Shown here piece by piece: positions 28,632 to 63,863 of a DNA stretch of 64,000 bases. Position 1 is the stretch's first letter; every line of letters starts with the position of its first letter. The stretch spans positions 124,001 to 188,000 of the forward strand of contig NZ_FUYZ01000002.1 of assembly GCF_900167905.1 (NCBI RefSeq), given 5' to 3'. The notes under the pieces were generated by a model that ran no database searches, had not been told where the DNA came from, and saw only the letters and a program-made list of their open reading frames with translations. Origin of the DNA: Soonwooa buanensis. Its GTDB lineage: Bacteria; Bacteroidota; Bacteroidia; Flavobacteriales; Weeksellaceae. The translations under genes and the position numbers were made by a program.

Positions 28632-30287
28632 TTAAGGATATACTTGTTTAATAATCCTTTGGAGTTCTTGTTGTTCTTGAGTGTTCATTTTTTTCCAAAC
28701 AAATCCATTTTTTAAGTCTTGACCTATTTTTTGGGGAAAGATGCCCGCTTTTTGATAATCGAGAAGATAATCGGGCGAAATTGCGGGTAATGCAGTGTCA
28801 AACGAGAATGGATAATCTTTAACAATATCGAATTTCAGATTTCCGATTTGATAAGTTTTGTATTTATTTAAAGAAAAACTAGATGGACGCACTAATTGTT
28901 TTGTATCCCAACCTGTCATCATTTTTCCTAAACTGAAGCTTGGTATTGAATTTTGTAAAGTTTGCGGAATACTTAAAATGATAATGGCTACAATCGATAA
29001 ACTGATGAAACCTAATTTCGCAAATGAAAACCAAGTTTTAGCAAAAATTAAAATCCCAGCGACTAAGAAAACGTCCAAAAACAAACGATATTGAGCGGAA
29101 AATATAAGCACTAAAATACTTTTCAATAAAATACATCCGACTAATAAACTGATTATTTTTTTCTTTTTTAAAACTGATAAAAAAACGAGTCCAACAAGTG
29201 TCAACACAAATAATTTGTGGATAATGCCTTTGATGCCGTCAAGATTTAGCCAATTAAAAACATAATCTTTAAAACTGAATTTTTGTATATCCTGATAACT
29301 GTATTGTAAATCGTAGCTTAGCTCTGTGCTGGTTTGTTTAGAAAGTTCTAAAAGTAGAGGATTTGCTTGCCAACTTAATCCTAAATCTGGAAAACCAACG
29401 GGGAAAAATGGATGTCCAAACGTCCAAATGTTTTTTAAAAAATAGAGTAGGATTAAACAAAAACCTGGTAATAATGAAATGATTTTGTTGCGCTTGATAA
29501 ACCAAAAATAAACGAAGCAAAAGATTATTAACCAGAAGGATGTTGGTTTTATAATGAATGCTAAACATGACAATAGAAACAAAAACTTTGCATGTCGCGA
29601 TTGGCTGAGAACTTCTTTTACAATGATAAAACTTAAAATCAAGGTTGGTAAATCTGGACTAGGCGATTGCGCAAAAACAAAAAATATTGGCGTGAAAACT
29701 AGACCGATCCAAGCTCGAGATTCGAAAATGTAGACTAAAAATACAATCAGTAAAAAAGTATTTAATCTTAAATAAGGATCGATAAAATTTGAAAATCCCG
29801 TTTGTAAAATATGCCAAGGCGAATATTGTCCCAAAAGCATATCAAGATTAGAAATACCTTTAACCAAACCAAATTCTTGCGTCCATTTAATTGTTGGAAC
29901 ATAATATCCAAAATGATCAAGAATGAAAGGGTAATAACTACCGACAAGCAATATTACTAACAAACAGAAATAGAAAAACTTTGACTGTCTTTTAAAAAAG
30001 ATAAAAAACTTTTGATAGGCTTTAAAATAGATGAAAGAAATAATACCTACAATAGAAAAAACTATTTCTACTATATAATTAATAGGAATGAAAAATGCTG
30101 CTAATGTCCAAATTGCTGTCGTAATCGAAAGTCCAATAAAAATATTAGTCGAAATTCTTTCTTCATAAAAAGGCAACAACTTTTGATACAGATTTCCTAA
30201 TCCGTAAAAGATAATAAGTAGTAAAGTCGTTGTCAGCAGTAGATACAGCATAAAAAAAGATTGCCTAAAAATAGACAATCTTTTCAT
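28632..30287 (-). CDS. Polytopic membrane protein, possible glycosyltransferase-C-like
   Basis: 551 residues with at least 11 predicted membrane helices, a long loop with HFGYYVPTIKWTQEFGLVKG near residue 125, and a C-terminal soluble segment of about 80 residues rich in aromatic and charged residues. The layout (early extracytoplasmic loop with charged/aromatic residues, many helices) resembles GT-C glycosyltransferases or the LIC_10190-type membrane proteins, but I cannot assign it firmly. It follows the glycine-zipper lipoprotein gene by 19 bases and is probably co-transcribed with it. Confidence 0.65.
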   Translation of the reverse strand: MKRLSIFRQSFFMLYLLLTTTLLLIIFYGLGNLYQKLLPFYEERISTNIFIGLSITTAIWTLAAFFIPINYIVEIVFSIVGIISFIYFKAYQKFFIFFKRQSKFFYFCLLVILLVGSYYPFILDHFGYYVPTIKWTQEFGLVKGISNLDMLLGQYSPWHILQTGFSNFIDPYLRLNTFLLIVFLVYIFESRAWIGLVFTPIFFVFAQSPSPDLPTLILSFIIVKEVLSQSRHAKFLFLLSCLAFIIKPTSFWLIIFCFVYFWFIKRNKIISLLPGFCLILLYFLKNIWTFGHPFFPVGFPDLGLSWQANPLLLELSKQTSTELSYDLQYSYQDIQKFSFKDYVFNWLNLDGIKGIIHKLFVLTLVGLVFLSVLKKKKIISLLVGCILLKSILVLIFSAQYRLFLDVFLVAGILIFAKTWFSFAKLGFISLSIVAIIILSIPQTLQNSIPSFSLGKMMTGWDTKQLVRPSSFSLNKYKTYQIGNLKFDIVKDYPFSFDTALPAISPDYLLDYQKAGIFPQKIGQDLKNGFVWKKMNTQEQQELQRIIKQVYP

Positions 30288-56945: not shown

Positions 56946-56977
56946 AGAAAAACCGCAACTTGCGGTTTTTTTTATTA
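56946..56977 (+). terminator. Terminator before the DprE-like operon
   Basis: AAACCGCAA pairs with TTGCGGTTT (56950-56968), followed by eight T. Confidence 0.88.
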
Positions 56978-56997
56978 TCAGATAATTCTTAATTTTG
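56967..56997 (+). promoter_or_regulatory. Promoter of the UbiA-DprE1-DprE2-HAD operon (TTTT-N19-TAATTTTG)
   Basis: Perfect -7 TAATTTTG at 56990-56997 and a TTTT -33 at 56967-56970, 19 bases apart and 16 bases before the first ATG. It overlaps the T-tract of the preceding terminator. Confidence 0.55.
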
Positions 56998-57013: not shown

Positions 57014-57898
57014 ATGGGAAAATATCTAAAACTTATTCGGGTAGAACAATGGGTCAAGAATCTCTTTGTTTTTCTTCCGCTATTTTTCTCGGGCAATATT
57101 ACCAACGTTGATTTATTCATCAAAAGTATATTTGCTTTCGTAGTGTTTTCGTTTACAGCAAGTTCCATCTACATCATTAATGATTATATGGATATTGAGT
57201 CAGACAAAAAACATCCAGAGAAAAAAAATCGACCTCTGGCAAGTGGAGCGATTTCGAAACCTACAGCAATTGCCATGTTCTTTGGGCTTTTGATTTCGGT
57301 CGTTTTAATAGTCATTTTTGGTGCTTCGTATTTTAATTACGATTTTACAAAATTTGCGATTATTATCGGCGGTTACTTCGTGATGAATCTTCTCTACACT
57401 TTTAAGCTAAAACATGTCGCTATCATTGATGTTTCAATTATAGCGGTTGGTTTTGTATTGAGAGTTTTGGCAGGTGGTTACGCGACAGGTTTAGCAATTT
57501 CTCAATGGGCAATTTTGTTGACTTTTGTGTTGGCATTGGTTTTGGCTGTTGGTAAAAGACGTGGAGAACTGATCAATGCGCAGGTTTCTGGAAGAACAAG
57601 AAAAGCTTTAGATGGTTATAATATTCAATTTGCAGATATTGCGTTATGTATTTGTGTGACATTAGCAATTGTTTGTTATTTGATGTTTACGTTGTCACCA
57701 GAAGTGCAGCACAAATTTCATCAAAGAGTATTTTACACTGTATTTTTTGTGATTTTTGCATTTTTAAGATATTTACAACAGACTTTAGTTTATAACAAAA
57801 CAGAATCTCCCACCAAAATCGTTTACAAAGATCACTACATCCAAGTGACTTTGTTATTGTGGGTTCTTACTTTTTTATTACAGATTTATTATAAATAA
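57014..57898 (+). CDS. UbiA-family decaprenyl-phosphate phosphoribosyltransferase-like enzyme
   Basis: 294 residues with about eight membrane helices. First Asp-rich motif NDYMDIESD at residues 56-64, then KKHPEKKNRPLASGAIS; a second motif, DVSIIAVGFVLRVLAGGYA, and GKRRGEL later, all as in DPPR synthase (Rv3806c). Its role would be to transfer phosphoribose from PRPP to a polyprenyl phosphate. It is the first gene of an operon with DprE1-like (2-base gap), DprE2-like and HAD genes. That context strongly supports the assignment. The other UbiA-like protein at 1002 lacks the first motif. Confidence 0.88.
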   Translation: MGKYLKLIRVEQWVKNLFVFLPLFFSGNITNVDLFIKSIFAFVVFSFTASSIYIINDYMDIESDKKHPEKKNRPLASGAISKPTAIAMFFGLLISVVLIVIFGASYFNYDFTKFAIIIGGYFVMNLLYTFKLKHVAIIDVSIIAVGFVLRVLAGGYATGLAISQWAILLTFVLALVLAVGKRRGELINAQVSGRTRKALDGYNIQFADIALCICVTLAIVCYLMFTLSPEVQHKFHQRVFYTVFFVIFAFLRYLQQTLVYNKTESPTKIVYKDHYIQVTLLLWVLTFLLQIYYK

Positions 57899-57900
57899 TT

Positions 57901-59217
57901 ATGAAACCGAACTTTATTCAAAAAGTTTCCAATTGGGGAAATTATCCAATTGTGGAAGTTGAAATGAAATCTGAAGATTCGCTTTCACAAATTAAATCTT
58001 TTGTCGCAGAACGTAACGAAGTTATCGCACGTGGTAACGGTCGTTGTTATGGCGATGCCTCGCTTGGGCAACATGTTTTTTCAACAAAAAGATTAAATAA
58101 ATTTTTATCATTCGATCGTCTTAATGGCGTTATCGAATGTGAATCTGGCGTGCTTCTATCAGATATTCTTGACGTTGTTGTATTACAAGGTTATTTCCTT
58201 TATGTGACGCCAGGTACAAAGTTTGTCAGTGTTGGAGGCGCAATAGCTTCTGACGTCCATGGTAAAAATCATCATGCTGAAGGTTGTTTTTCAGAATATG
58301 TTATTGAGTTTAAAATTTTAAATCAAAACTCACAGGTAATCACTTGTTCGCGAGAAGAAAATTCTGATTTATTTTGGGCAACTATTGGAGGAATGGGACT
58401 TACAGGTATTATTCTTTCTGCTAAAATCAAACTTAAAAATATTGAAACCGCTTACATTCGACAAGAAAGTATAAAAGCTGATAATCTTGATGAGATTTTC
58501 CAACTCTTTGACGAAAGCGAAGATTGGACATATAATGTCGCTTGGATCGATTGTTTACAAAAGGGGAAAAATATTGGACGTTCTATTCTTATGCGTGGCG
58601 AACATGCTTTGAAGGCTGAGGTTAGTAAGTCTAAAGGTCAAAATCCTTTACGTTTAAAATCAAAATTTAGCCCGAATGTTCCTTTTTATTTTCCAGGATT
58701 TGTCTTAAATACGTTGTCAATCAAGATTTTTAATTGGTTGTATTTTAACAAACAAAGAGCGAAGCAAGTTAACGGTTTTGTCGACTACGAGACATTTTTC
58801 TATCCTTTGGATGCTATCAAGAATTGGAACAGAATCTACGGCAAAAAAGGCTTTATTCAATACCAAATGGTCATCCCAAAAGAGAAGGGTAAAGAAGGTA
58901 TGAAACGTATTTTGGAATGTATCGCGAAAAGTGGAAATGGTTCATTCTTGGCGGTTCTTAAATTGTTTGGGAAAGATAATCCACAAGCTTACAACTCCTT
59001 CCCACAAGAAGGTTACACGTTGGCTTTAGATTTTAAAGTTAATTCTAAACTTAAAAAATTGATTGCACAATTGGATGAAATTGTAGAAGAATTTGACGGA
59101 AGAATTTATCTTACCAAGGACAGCATGAGCAAAAGTAGCTTGACAGATTATCTCAAAAATGTTGAGAATTCCAAATTTGTGTCGCTACAACATCAACGTA
59201 TCCATAATCCCTCTTAA
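57901..59217 (+). CDS. DprE1-like FAD-dependent oxidoreductase
   Basis: 438 residues of the VAO/FAD-linked type. FAD signature IARGNGRCYGDASLG around residues 42-56 and VGGAIASDVHGKNHHAEG around residues 111-128 are close to mycobacterial DprE1 (decaprenylphosphoryl-ribose 2'-oxidase); the substrate region keeps FIQYQMVIP and SFLAVLKLFG. The TKDS lysine (Lys406) matches DprE1 Lys418, and Ala375 (in TLALDF) stands where DprE1 has Cys387; both have the same 31-residue spacing. The expected product is the 2'-keto polyprenyl intermediate. It partners with the SDR nine bases downstream. Confidence 0.88.
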   Translation: MKPNFIQKVSNWGNYPIVEVEMKSEDSLSQIKSFVAERNEVIARGNGRCYGDASLGQHVFSTKRLNKFLSFDRLNGVIECESGVLLSDILDVVVLQGYFLYVTPGTKFVSVGGAIASDVHGKNHHAEGCFSEYVIEFKILNQNSQVITCSREENSDLFWATIGGMGLTGIILSAKIKLKNIETAYIRQESIKADNLDEIFQLFDESEDWTYNVAWIDCLQKGKNIGRSILMRGEHALKAEVSKSKGQNPLRLKSKFSPNVPFYFPGFVLNTLSIKIFNWLYFNKQRAKQVNGFVDYETFFYPLDAIKNWNRIYGKKGFIQYQMVIPKEKGKEGMKRILECIAKSGNGSFLAVLKLFGKDNPQAYNSFPQEGYTLALDFKVNSKLKKLIAQLDEIVEEFDGRIYLTKDSMSKSSLTDYLKNVENSKFVSLQHQRIHNPS

Positions 59218-59226
59218 TTCTACAAA

Positions 59227-59952
59227 ATGATAGTAATAGGTGCTAATTCGGAAGTGGCGCAAGCTTTTGTGGAATGCTGCTTAAAGAAAGGTGAAAAGTT
59301 CAAAACTTTATATTTATTAAGTTCGAATACTGCGACTTCGGAGAAGTTTGCGAATCATATCAATGTTAAATATCTTCAACATACAGAAGTTCTAGAATTG
59401 GACGTTCTTAAAGATATAGACTATAAAAATTTTGACCATATCGAGTCTGATTTGTTGTTTTGCGCAAGCGGATATCTTGGTTTAGGGACGGAAGAAGGTC
59501 TTTACGATGATAAAAATACAGAACGAATTTTAGATATTAATTTCTCTAAATTGGTTCCTGTTCTTAACCATTTTGCAAAAAAAATGGAATCCAAAAGACA
59601 AGGTAACATGATTGTTTTGTCGTCTGTTGCAGGCGATAGAGGTCGTCAAAGTAATTTTATCTACGGAAGTGCAAAGGCTGGTCTTACGGCTTATCTTAGC
59701 GGACTTAGAAATTATTTATTTGATAAAAAAGTTCATGTTATGACGGTTAAGCCCGGCTTTATGGCAACCAAAATGACCGAAGGTTTACCGCTTAATCCAG
59801 CTTTGACAGCAACGCCAGATCAAGCAGCTTTAGCTATTTTTAAAGCTTACAAAAGCAAAAAAAACACAGCTTATGTATTGCCAATTTGGAGTTTGATAAT
59901 GATGATTATCAGAAATATTCCAGAATTTATTTTTAAGAAATTGAAACTTTAA
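59227..59952 (+). CDS. DprE2-like short-chain dehydrogenase
   Basis: 241 residues. The N-terminus IVIGANSEVAQAFVE is the nucleotide-binding loop variant of DprE2-type SDRs; LSSVAGDRGRQSNFIYGSAKAG carries the catalytic Ser, Tyr146 and Lys150 in YGSAK. It would reduce the keto intermediate to give the epimerised sugar (arabinose from ribose in mycobacteria). It sits between the DprE1-like and HAD genes, 9 and 12 bases apart. The C-terminal hydrophobic stretch (SLIMMIIRNIPEFIFKK) may bind the membrane. Confidence 0.88.
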   Translation: MIVIGANSEVAQAFVECCLKKGEKFKTLYLLSSNTATSEKFANHINVKYLQHTEVLELDVLKDIDYKNFDHIESDLLFCASGYLGLGTEEGLYDDKNTERILDINFSKLVPVLNHFAKKMESKRQGNMIVLSSVAGDRGRQSNFIYGSAKAGLTAYLSGLRNYLFDKKVHVMTVKPGFMATKMTEGLPLNPALTATPDQAALAIFKAYKSKKNTAYVLPIWSLIMMIIRNIPEFIFKKLKL

Positions 59953-59964
59953 TTGTTTTAAAAA

Positions 59965-60552
59965 ATGAAAAAATTGTATGTATTCGATTTTGATGGGACT
60001 TTAACTTACAAGGACACGATGTTTTTGTATCTTAAATATTTTAATCCATCGAAGTATAGATTTCAATTTTTGAAACATGCACCGCTTTTTGCTTTGGTTA
60101 AATTAAAACTTGCTGATGCAGAAACTGTCAAGAAGAGTTTTATAGCATCAATTCTTAAAGGTCAAACGGAAACAAAACTTAACCAAGTTGCCGATCAATT
60201 TTTTGAACATCAATATCCAAAACTTATTCGTGATAACGCTTTAGATTTTATTGATAAAATTAAAAAAGAACAAACGGATTCTTACATTGTCACGGCGTCT
60301 TTAGATATTTGGGTGCGACCATTTGCAGAAAAATTTGGGATGCAATTGTTAGCAACCAAAGCAGATTATCAAAATGGCGTTTTTACAGGTAAGTTTGCTA
60401 CTAAAAATTGCAACGGCGAAGAAAAAGTAGTTAGAATAAAAGAAGCAATTAGTGGGCGAAAATTCGATAAAACCATAGCTTTTGGTGACACTTCGGGAGA
60501 TAAACCAATGTTAAAATGGGCAAATGAAAGTTTTTATCAATTTTTTCACTAA
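59965..60552 (+). CDS. HAD-IB family phosphatase, linked to the DprE-like operon
   Basis: 195 residues. The nucleophile motif VFDFDGTLTYKDT has Asp8 and Asp10; the Ser/Thr motif is SYIVTASLDIWVRP; the last motif IAFGDTSGDKPML has the acidic pair. In this operon it is the obvious candidate to remove the 5'-phosphate from polyprenyl-phosphoryl-5-phosphoribose, a job attributed to other phosphatases in mycobacteria; fusions of HAD with UbiA enzymes elsewhere support the link. Assignment to this step is inference. Confidence 0.82.
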   Translation: MKKLYVFDFDGTLTYKDTMFLYLKYFNPSKYRFQFLKHAPLFALVKLKLADAETVKKSFIASILKGQTETKLNQVADQFFEHQYPKLIRDNALDFIDKIKKEQTDSYIVTASLDIWVRPFAEKFGMQLLATKADYQNGVFTGKFATKNCNGEEKVVRIKEAISGRKFDKTIAFGDTSGDKPMLKWANESFYQFFH

Positions 60553-60565
60553 TTTCGTATCAACA

Positions 60566-60599
60566 TAAATGAGGCACATCGCTTCATTTTTTTTTAAAA
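60566..60599 (+). terminator. Terminator of the DprE-like operon
   Basis: AAATGAGGC pairs with GCTTCATTT (60568-60590) and is followed by a long T-run, before the cysteine desulfurase gene. Confidence 0.78.
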
Positions 60600-62618: not shown

Positions 62619-63863
62619 ATGAACAAGACTTTTAATCTTCTCTTCTATGTGAAGAAAGCCAAAGTTAACACAGTTGGTAAAGCACCAATCTATGTTCGCA
62701 TGACATTGGATGGACAAATATCAGAGCTTAGCACCAAACGCACTATTTCACCTCAAAAATGGAATTCTACAGCACAACGAGCATCTGGTTCATCGGAGGA
62801 AATTAAAGCTCTTAATTTCTACCTTAAATCGTTTGAACAAAAGATTTACGATGCATATCATTGTTTATTGCGAGAGAAAAACCTCATCACTTCACAAGAT
62901 TTGAAAAATCATTTGCTTGGCGTTAAGGAACGAAGCAGAATGTTGGTGTCAATCTTCGAAGATCACAACAATCGAATGGCGCAGCTTCTTGACAAAGAAT
63001 TCTCAAAAGGAACCCTTCAACGTTACAAAACTTGTTTGTCACACCTTAAAGATTTCCTTAATTTAAAATTTCATGTTAATGATATTGCAATCACTAAAAT
63101 TGATTTAGCATTTATTAATGATTTCGAATTTTATCTAAGAACAAAACCAATTAAACCTTGCGCCAATAATTCTGCAGTAAAGTACATCAAGAACTTTGGA
63201 AAGATTATTCGGATATGCTTGGTGAATAGATGGCTTAGTTTTGACCCTTTTATGGGATATAGTTCTAAATTATCCGAAGTTAATCGTGGTTTTTTAGATG
63301 AAGCAGAATTACTATGTTTGGAAAATAAAGAATTCTCAATCGAACGAATTGAACAAGTTCGAGATATCTTTGTTTTTAGTTGTTATACGGGGCTTGCATT
63401 TATAGATGTATGGAACTTAACTACTGATAATATTGGGATAGGTCTGGATGCAAATAAATGGATTTTTACTTCACGTCAAAAAACAAAAATAGCGTCTCAT
63501 ATTCCTCTTTTACCTAAGGCAGAGGCTATTATCCAAAAGTATCAGAACCACCCTCGTTGTGTTTCAAAGAGAAAGTTATTGCCTTTGTTAAGTAATCAGA
63601 AGATGAATGCCTATCTCAAAGAAATTGCAGATCTCTGTGGGATTTCTAAAGAATTGACGTTCCATATCGCTCGTCACACGTTTGCCACAACTGTTACTTT
63701 AGCCAATGGTGTTTCTATCGAAAGTGTTAGCAAGATGCTTGGGCATAAGAGCATAAAAACGACACAGCATTACGCTAAAATTCTTGATAAAAAAGTAGGT
63801 GAAGACATGTTAGCGCTTCAAGTGTTGTTACAAACGAAAAACGATGACGCAAAAATAGGATAA
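62619..63863 (+). CDS. Tyrosine recombinase / site-specific integrase
   Basis: 414 residues of the Bacteroidetes mobile-element type. An N-terminal arm-type DNA-binding domain (FNLLFYVKKAKVNTVGKAPI ... about 1-90), a SAM-like core-binding domain (about 105-200) and the catalytic domain with TGLAFIDVWNLT, His349-x-x-Arg352 in HIARHTFA, His376 in LGHKS and the nucleophile Tyr385 in HYAKI. It is not XerC/D-like in length or N-terminus. It should excise and insert the element whose left part is seen here. It starts at ATG, in the gap after tRNA-Asp. Confidence 0.93.
   Translation: MNKTFNLLFYVKKAKVNTVGKAPIYVRMTLDGQISELSTKRTISPQKWNSTAQRASGSSEEIKALNFYLKSFEQKIYDAYHCLLREKNLITSQDLKNHLLGVKERSRMLVSIFEDHNNRMAQLLDKEFSKGTLQRYKTCLSHLKDFLNLKFHVNDIAITKIDLAFINDFEFYLRTKPIKPCANNSAVKYIKNFGKIIRICLVNRWLSFDPFMGYSSKLSEVNRGFLDEAELLCLENKEFSIERIEQVRDIFVFSCYTGLAFIDVWNLTTDNIGIGLDANKWIFTSRQKTKIASHIPLLPKAEAIIQKYQNHPRCVSKRKLLPLLSNQKMNAYLKEIADLCGISKELTFHIARHTFATTVTLANGVSIESVSKMLGHKSIKTTQHYAKILDKKVGEDMLALQVLLQTKNDDAKIG

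Follow-up and report, generated by a model that had tools for sequence, protein, structure and literature searches.

A conserved operon in Weeksellaceae predicted to make a polyprenyl-linked arabinofuranose donor, and a candidate transferase for its use

Arabinofuranose (Araf) is best known from mycobacterial envelopes. Lipid-linked routes to pentofuranoses have been described from mycobacteria and, as three-component systems, from Gram-negative bacteria, and as PMC11127046 reports DprE1 and DprE2 homologues in connection with Araf-containing glycans, the kind of pathway considered here is already known. The main text of that paper contains no word beginning 'Bacteroid' or 'Flavobact', and a literature search of open-licence papers yielded, among those listed, no report of the operon in Bacteroidota. 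The DNA studied here is a 64,000-nucleotide stretch (the window, G000:C29:124001-188000) of the genome of Soonwooa buanensis (3.33 Mb in 30 contigs), a member of the Weeksellaceae, and the system in question is an operon of four genes encoding UbiA, DprE1-like, DprE2-like and HAD-IB proteins. To judge from the sequences it is a real and conserved operon that would supply an Araf donor, and the candidate for the use of that donor is a concrete one. It is considered likely that the operon makes polyprenyl-phosphoryl-arabinofuranose and that a glycosyltransferase of the GT-C type, resembling AftB and encoded elsewhere in the genome, passes Araf to a periplasmic glycan or glycoprotein. It follows as a prediction that Chryseobacterium, Epilithonimonas and their relatives carry surface Araf, and a candidate for the transferase that would place it there is named.

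Gene identities and distribution of the operon

The four open reading frames (ORFs) lie on the forward strand with intergenic gaps of 2, 9 and 12 bases, as had been claimed. They encode a UbiA-family polyprenyl-phosphate 5-phosphoribosyltransferase resembling DPPR synthase (57014-57898, 294 amino acids), a DprE1-like FAD oxidase (57901-59217, 438 amino acids), a DprE2-like SDR reductase (59227-59952, 241 amino acids) and a HAD-IB phosphatase (59965-60552, 195 amino acids), which is proposed to be a polyprenyl-phosphate phosphoribose 5'-phosphatase. The UbiA protein scores 73 bits against Pfam UbiA and passes the NCBIfam model for decaprenyl-phosphate phosphoribosyltransferase (NF008978, 215.3 bits, cut-off 207), two other DPPR-synthase models being missed (NF008977, 225.4 under 234; NF008976, 159 under 474). 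Among solved structures it comes closest to mycobacterial DPPR synthase, and with N56, D57, D60, D64 and GKRRGEL in place the prediction of a UbiA enzyme with both Asp motifs holds. The residues given for binding of phosphoribosyl pyrophosphate (PRPP) and Mg by Rv3806c in PMC10994848 are N73, D77, K28, K143, K208 and Q135; five of these six are kept in the window protein (K28, N73, D77, K143, K208) and Q135 is replaced by N125. The protein is thus DPPR-synthase-like and is predicted to transfer ribose-5-phosphate from PRPP to polyprenyl phosphate. Two further UbiA proteins in the genome exceed the family cut-off, one other prenyltransferase and MenA (TIGR00751, 246 bits over 102), the gene for which adjoins one read by eye as menB, and the window protein is therefore not the menaquinone enzyme.

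The nine best PDB sequences for the oxidase are all DprE1 (best E 8e-74), and the FAD domain, the HGKNHH motif and the active-site Lys are retained, in keeping with the DprE1-type FAD signature originally noticed; Lys406 and His120 are conserved in all 76 aligned homologues. By this protein the closest named relatives are Epilithonimonas and Chryseobacterium records at 77-82% identity, in a search that may leave out records of the S. buanensis genome itself. The Cys of DprE1 that is the benzothiazinone target has Ala375 at its position in the window protein, and among the 76 aligned homologues this position is Ala in 73 and Thr in three; DprE1 is a drug target, and its reactive Cys is replaced in the window protein. 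The reductase carries YGSAK at 146. The phosphatase exceeds the cut-off of the HAD-IB model (125 bits over 98) and has DFDGT as its HAD motif I, which bears out its assignment.

The order of reactions is borrowed from the mycobacterial pathway and from PMC11127046. In this scheme the UbiA enzyme would transfer ribose-5-phosphate to polyprenyl phosphate, the HAD enzyme would remove the 5'-phosphate, the DprE1-like enzyme would oxidise C2 and the DprE2-like enzyme would reduce it with inversion to give the arabino form. The lipid-linked arabinose would then be flipped, and the AftB-like GT-C would transfer Araf to a periplasmic glycan or glycoprotein. No flippase is found among the four operon genes, MATE and Wzx proteins not having been searched for, and the single GtrA gene of the genome (C13:75090-75500) is unlinked to the operon.

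Gene order was counted over 80 homologous loci and the window, 81 in all. UbiA, DprE1, DprE2 and HAD follow one another without intervening ORFs in 39 of the 81, the window and Chitinophagales included, DprE1 and DprE2 are adjacent in 66, and the HAD gene lies downstream of DprE1 on the same strand and within 3.5 kb in 109 of the 121 DprE1-positive Weeksellaceae genomes. With the arrangement kept this often, it is not a product of chance, and the conserved neighbourhood in Bacteroidota, a search for which had been proposed, is present. All four genes, with extra genes between them, also occur in Campylobacterota, Desulfamplus and a Methylococcaceae metagenome-assembled genome (MAG) (L053, L056, L058, L060, L071). 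A strong DprE1 was found in 121/148 Weeksellaceae genomes, a count that leaves out 7 of 128 genomes with weak matches to FAD oxidases (G009, G038, G042, G054, G068, G078, G087). The sample of the phylum gave a strong DprE1 in 82 of 395 genomes, nine of them Weeksellaceae, and among the 40 listed genomes of f2, the order's other family, none had a strong DprE1.

The HAD gene was matched in 129 of the 148 Weeksellaceae genomes, including all 121 with DprE1 (weakly, at 32% identity, in G007) and eight without it (two of genus g23 and six of g24). At four such loci (L145-L148; genomes G061, G092, G045 and G022) the OmpA-like gene, UbiA, HAD and the cysteine desulfurase are intact and both DprE genes are missing, and the UbiA of L145, the one tested, passes two DPPR-synthase models. 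Trees were built for UbiA and NifS; in the UbiA tree, which has several long branches and in which half of the inner branches are poorly supported, the sequences from UbiA-HAD-only loci fall among those from DprE-positive loci, so that at least two changes are needed. One locus, L161, is labelled DprE-negative there only because the operon is split in that genome, DprE1 being in L160. Since UbiA and HAD persist at this site where the DprE genes are missing, the two pairs are separable modules: UbiA and HAD form one, which probably gives polyprenyl-phosphate ribose, and DprE1 and DprE2 a second. A HAD-UbiA fusion occurs in another phylum (L078), and in Citrobacter ORF15 the PRP domain, there part of a fused protein, acts as a 5'-phosphatase (PMC11127046); BLAST matches of the window HAD to the HAD parts of fused proteins were weak or absent. 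By analogy with that enzymology, and from the fusion and the UbiA-HAD-only loci, the phosphatase may well be the 5'-phosphatase partner of UbiA, which agrees with the dephosphorylation step ascribed to it at the outset.

The candidate transferase and its co-distribution with DprE1

The original prediction placed the acceptor outside the window, with which the tests run agree, and it proposed a search for a GT-C arabinosyl- or ribosyltransferase; an AftB-like candidate was found outside the window. A GT-C-like protein of 502 amino acids with multiple transmembrane (TM) segments, here called type 1, is encoded directly after HAD in Chishuiella (L026), and its homologue in S. buanensis lies on contig 10 of G000 at 117507-118982 (49% identity, E 4e-142). 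Type 1 adjoins the operon in 11 genomes: it directly follows HAD in 10 (g22, g29), with gaps of 29-86 bases, and in G007 it directly precedes UbiA and is split into two ORFs. Other genera have a second subfamily, type 2 (alignment A2), whose gene lies close to one for elongation factor G (L185 tested). A profile made from type 1 only finds two type-2 members (E 7e-12 and 7e-9), and a Campylobacteraceae MAG has a relative of type 2 joined to UbiA (E 1e-43). In Pseudomonas indica, the DprE1/DprE2 locus encodes a GT-C joined to UbiA that matches AftB (E 4e-12) and that is also found by the Weeksellaceae type-1-only profile (E 5e-6).

A GT-C of type 1 or 2 is present in 101 of 121 DprE1-positive and in only 2 of 27 DprE1-negative Weeksellaceae genomes (p 6e-14), the two exceptions, G005 and G013, being about 80% complete. 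Among genomes at least 90% complete the figures are 97/117 and 0/23. The type-1 query had been chosen for its position after HAD in one genus, and the test was repeated without genera 8, 17, 22 and 29, whose operons contain or adjoin a GT-C gene, giving 85/96 against 2/25; counted per genus, the GT-C is present in 22 of 24 with DprE1 and 2 of 9 without (p 3e-4). None of the eight HAD-positive, DprE1-negative genomes has a GT-C of either type, from which it follows that the GT-C goes with the epimerases and not with the synthase. For type 1, two of the 81 genomes matched were dropped, their E exceeding 1e-5 (G086, G137), type 2 was counted at E <= 4e-53 (46 of 77 genomes), and the non-matching genomes were listed in part in three of the searches (47, 36 and 51 unlisted). 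The counts leave out the in-operon GT-Cs of G016 and G041 and a further one of G100, all of which had come up with profile A1, itself containing the two G041 proteins.

Likeness to AftB is seen at two aligned positions. Mutation of AftB at the catalytic D62 or at R221 abolishes activity (PMC12041299); these residues align with D29 and R165 of type 1, E replacing the first D of the DD motif, and across 15 diverse GT-C members D29 is nearly invariant and R165 invariant. A Foldseek search with a low-quality model of the L026 protein ranked AftB, which has a GT-CA fold with a periplasmic cap, both first and second among 350,542 chains.

A number of observations weigh against the proposed role of this protein. 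The direct match of type 1 to AftB is weak (E 0.66), profile A1, with two distant rows among its members, reached AftB at E 0.024, with enterochelin-binding proteins as the other matches (E >= 0.13), and the AftB model NF041481 gave 14.2 bits (E 0.008), its cut-off of 1050 not being reached. No AftB match came from the type-2 profile or from the GT-Cs lying within the G016 and G041 operons, and the type-1-only profile does not pick up these in-operon proteins. No counterpart of the third essential AftB residue, R372, was placed in the alignment. The L026 model is poor, with a predicted local distance difference test (pLDDT) score of 50, and the Foldseek template-modelling score was 0.3, no match having an E below 0.001. 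Neither GT-C subfamily was found in 20 of the 121 DprE1-positive genomes, the gene in S. buanensis is unlinked to the operon, and the co-distribution tests ignore ancestry, so that genomes are not independent samples. The link is also looser in the wider phylum (15/40 against 3/40, p 0.0025), where the counts were made with a broad profile (A4), in-operon rows included, over 40 of 73 non-Weeksellaceae genomes with strong DprE1 and 40 of 313 others, the genomes being picked by hand for family spread. The type-1 protein is AftB-like at most, and is not AftB.

Other membrane proteins were met with in the course of these searches. The GT-C-like proteins encoded within the operon in G016 and G041 (L194:9183-10814 and L156:11971-15178) have a similar ED motif, resemble a protein of L192 (E 3e-24) and match no solved structure. 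A multi-TM protein of about 460 amino acids, weakly similar to the putative glycosyltransferases LA_3751/LA_3752, lies between DprE1 and DprE2 in G041 (L156:9805-11196) and recurs near a type-2 GT-C in G126 (L186:11409). At Chitinophagales/Cytophagales-type loci (L030, L031, L035, L038, L041, L042, L047, L050, L054, L061, L083) a mostly divergent gene near the operon encodes a multi-TM protein of 525-579 amino acids, which is perhaps the GT-C of those organisms; scans of two examples (L038, L042) gave no Pfam family, and there is no match among the window ORFs. No PMT_2 GT-C enzyme was found in the S. buanensis genome. A window protein considered as a GT-C (28632-30287, 551 amino acids, 11 TM) was rejected, having no Pfam match, membership of the NCBIfam LIC_10190 family and no link to the operon; its gene adjoins asparagine synthase B.

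Genomic settings of the transferase gene and the operon

The GT-C gene of S. buanensis starts 70 bases after a gene encoding a TMEM260-like protein of 1162 amino acids (Pfam PF11028, 224 bits), and such a gene is directly upstream of type 1 in at least 36 of the 79 type-1-positive genomes, S. buanensis included; the figure is a lower bound, 138 genomes with TMEM260 rows having been used, and L164 shows one more. On the 3' side of the S. buanensis gene are a DUF1697 gene and then kdsA, for 3-deoxy-8-phosphooctulonate synthase (369 bits over 242). At several loci (L165, L166, L168, L169, L171, L172, L173, L178) the block is kept, with small differences, without the GT-C, which therefore has the character of an insertion into a stable site; the TMEM260 loci L174-L176, L179, L182 and L183 have different neighbours. 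In L181 (G081) a protein of 449 amino acids and 13 TM lies between the TMEM260-like and DUF1697 genes, where relatives have type 1. Two genes lie upstream and divergent in S. buanensis: one is cysteate-synthase-like (551 bits, cut-off 600), the other is of the BioF/Kbl/serine-palmitoyltransferase type and under every cut-off. This pair (L124:3773-6132, G000 contig 10) may be sulfonolipid (capnine) genes beside the TMEM260-like gene and kdsA.

The gene 5' of the operon is OmpA-like, and 3' of it are genes for a NifS/IscS-type cysteine desulfurase and then thioredoxin. The stretch from the OmpA-like gene to the operon contains a hairpin (56948-56970), listed by the scan for the reverse strand and followed by a T-run on the forward strand. 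The promoter originally placed at 56967-56997 finds no support, as no sigma-70-like site was reported there and the T-run of this hairpin makes up its left part. Read by eye, TAATTTTG at 56990-56997 on the forward strand is a possible Bacteroidota-type -7 element, agreeing with the consensus. The terminator predicted at 60566 stands in so far as a hairpin with a T-run is present 3' of the operon (60567-60589, forward strand); the region holds 4 terminator-like sites against 2.0 +/- 1.2 in shuffled sequences, which is no strong excess. A tyrosine recombinase of the phage-integrase type is encoded downstream of the operon region (62619-63863) and possibly marks the boundary of a mobile element.

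The acceptor, rival explanations and known systems

An important consideration is where the Araf would be placed. A 2025 review of O-glycosylation in Bacteroidota, which rests on few species, gives the core-glycan machinery, the oligosaccharyltransferase and the ligase as unidentified (PMC12871550); no word in its main text begins with 'pentos' or 'arabin', and our literature search found no description of an Araf branch of this glycosylation. One tentative reading, which we regard as rather doubtful, is that in Weeksellaceae the AftB-like transferase, with the TMEM260-like enzyme encoded upstream of it, would add Araf from the donor to mannose-initiated periplasmic protein O-glycans. Were it true, genera that have UbiA and HAD without DprE1 and DprE2 would carry ribofuranose instead. 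The TMEM260-AftB-like pair supplies concrete genes for work on O-glycosylation, and natural presence/absence pairs of genomes are available for testing. TMEM260-like genes occur in 146 of the 148 genomes, whatever the state of DprE1, so that their adjacency to the GT-C suggests, and does not show, a shared acceptor.

The strongest alternative keeps the donor as proposed and has the sugar placed on the core or O-antigen of lipopolysaccharide (LPS) or on an exopolysaccharide, and this is a serious contender, falling just short of an even chance. The characterised Citrobacter prototype acts on O-antigen (PMC11127046), and kdsA, two genes downstream of the S. buanensis GT-C, speaks equally for LPS. 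Against it stands the TMEM260-like gene, of the protein O-mannosyltransferase family, directly upstream of the GT-C in so many genomes, a point weakened in turn by the nearly identical order of the TMEM260-like gene and kdsA where the GT-C is lacking; the adjacency may thus be uninformative for both acceptors.

That the end product is another pentofuranose, with ribose kept or another epimer formed, or that the DprE1/DprE2-like enzymes act on another lipid sugar, is improbable. It draws on the scores of both proteins against the curated models, the oxidase reaching 387.3 bits with the DprE1 equivalog NF053785 (cut-off 500) and the reductase 142.3 bits with the DprE2 equivalog NF053786 (cut-off 250), for which reason they are named DprE1-like and DprE2-like; these scores count against Araf as the product. 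The general SDR model NF005489 scores the reductase higher (240 bits), though itself below its cut-off of 267; the YGSAK motif and the position beside DprE1 agree with the DprE2-like assignment first proposed. The NF053785 cut-off is passed by none of the 395 Bacteroidota genomes and by one of 14 control genomes. Related systems for lipid-linked ribofuranose and xylofuranose do exist, according to PMC11127046, and the same source has DprE1/E2 homologues in Araf-containing glycans. Further against another pentofuranose are the exclusively DprE1 sequences among the oxidase's best PDB matches, the frequent adjacency of DprE1 and DprE2, and the company that DprE1 keeps with the GT-C. The weakest explanation, that genes of unrelated pathways (quinone prenylation, a general SDR, a general phosphatase) merely lie together, appeals to the many roles of the large UbiA, SDR and HAD superfamilies and is already contradicted, and very improbable, given a separate MenA, the DPPR-synthase model passed, UbiA and HAD kept together without DprE1, and the four genes found together in Bacteroidota and, with others between, in other phyla; the placing of the four proteins in a quinone pathway was thus not seen. 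All the tests run are consistent with the original proposal of a polyprenyl-phosphate-linked pentofuranose, which we infer from sequence and gene context.

Of the known systems, the mycobacterial decaprenylphosphoryl arabinose (DPA) pathway (Rv3806c, Rv3807c, DprE1, DprE2, Emb/Aft) is alike in its UbiA-type phosphoribosyltransferase, the counterpart of the DprE1/DprE2-like pair and, distantly, its AftB. It differs in having a 5'-phosphatase of the Rv3807c type where S. buanensis has a HAD protein, and in keeping the benzothiazinone-target Cys where the operon's DprE1-like homologues have Ala or Thr; the GT-C in the S. buanensis genome, moreover, is unlinked to the donor genes. To our knowledge no arabinogalactan is to be expected in a Gram-negative bacterium. 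The proteobacterial DprE1/DprE2 loci L057, L060 and L062 likewise have UbiA, DprE1 and DprE2 beside a multi-TM protein, and carry in addition a GtrA-family gene (by Pfam in L057 and L060, by clustering in L062) that the window operon is without; a published relative of such loci is the arabinosylation of Pseudomonas pilin (PMC11127046). The three-component pentofuranose systems described in the same paper (Citrobacter youngae O1/O2 and others) are alike in the phosphoribosyltransferase with a HAD-type phosphatase, in epimerases that choose the pentose, with DprE1/E2 homologues in the Araf cases, and in a GT-C user, for which S. buanensis has a candidate. Compared with these, the S. buanensis operon differs in a HAD phosphatase that is a separate protein, in the lack of a flippase gene, in a candidate transferase that is AftB-like and in a conserved donor locus that lies apart from the site of the transferase gene.

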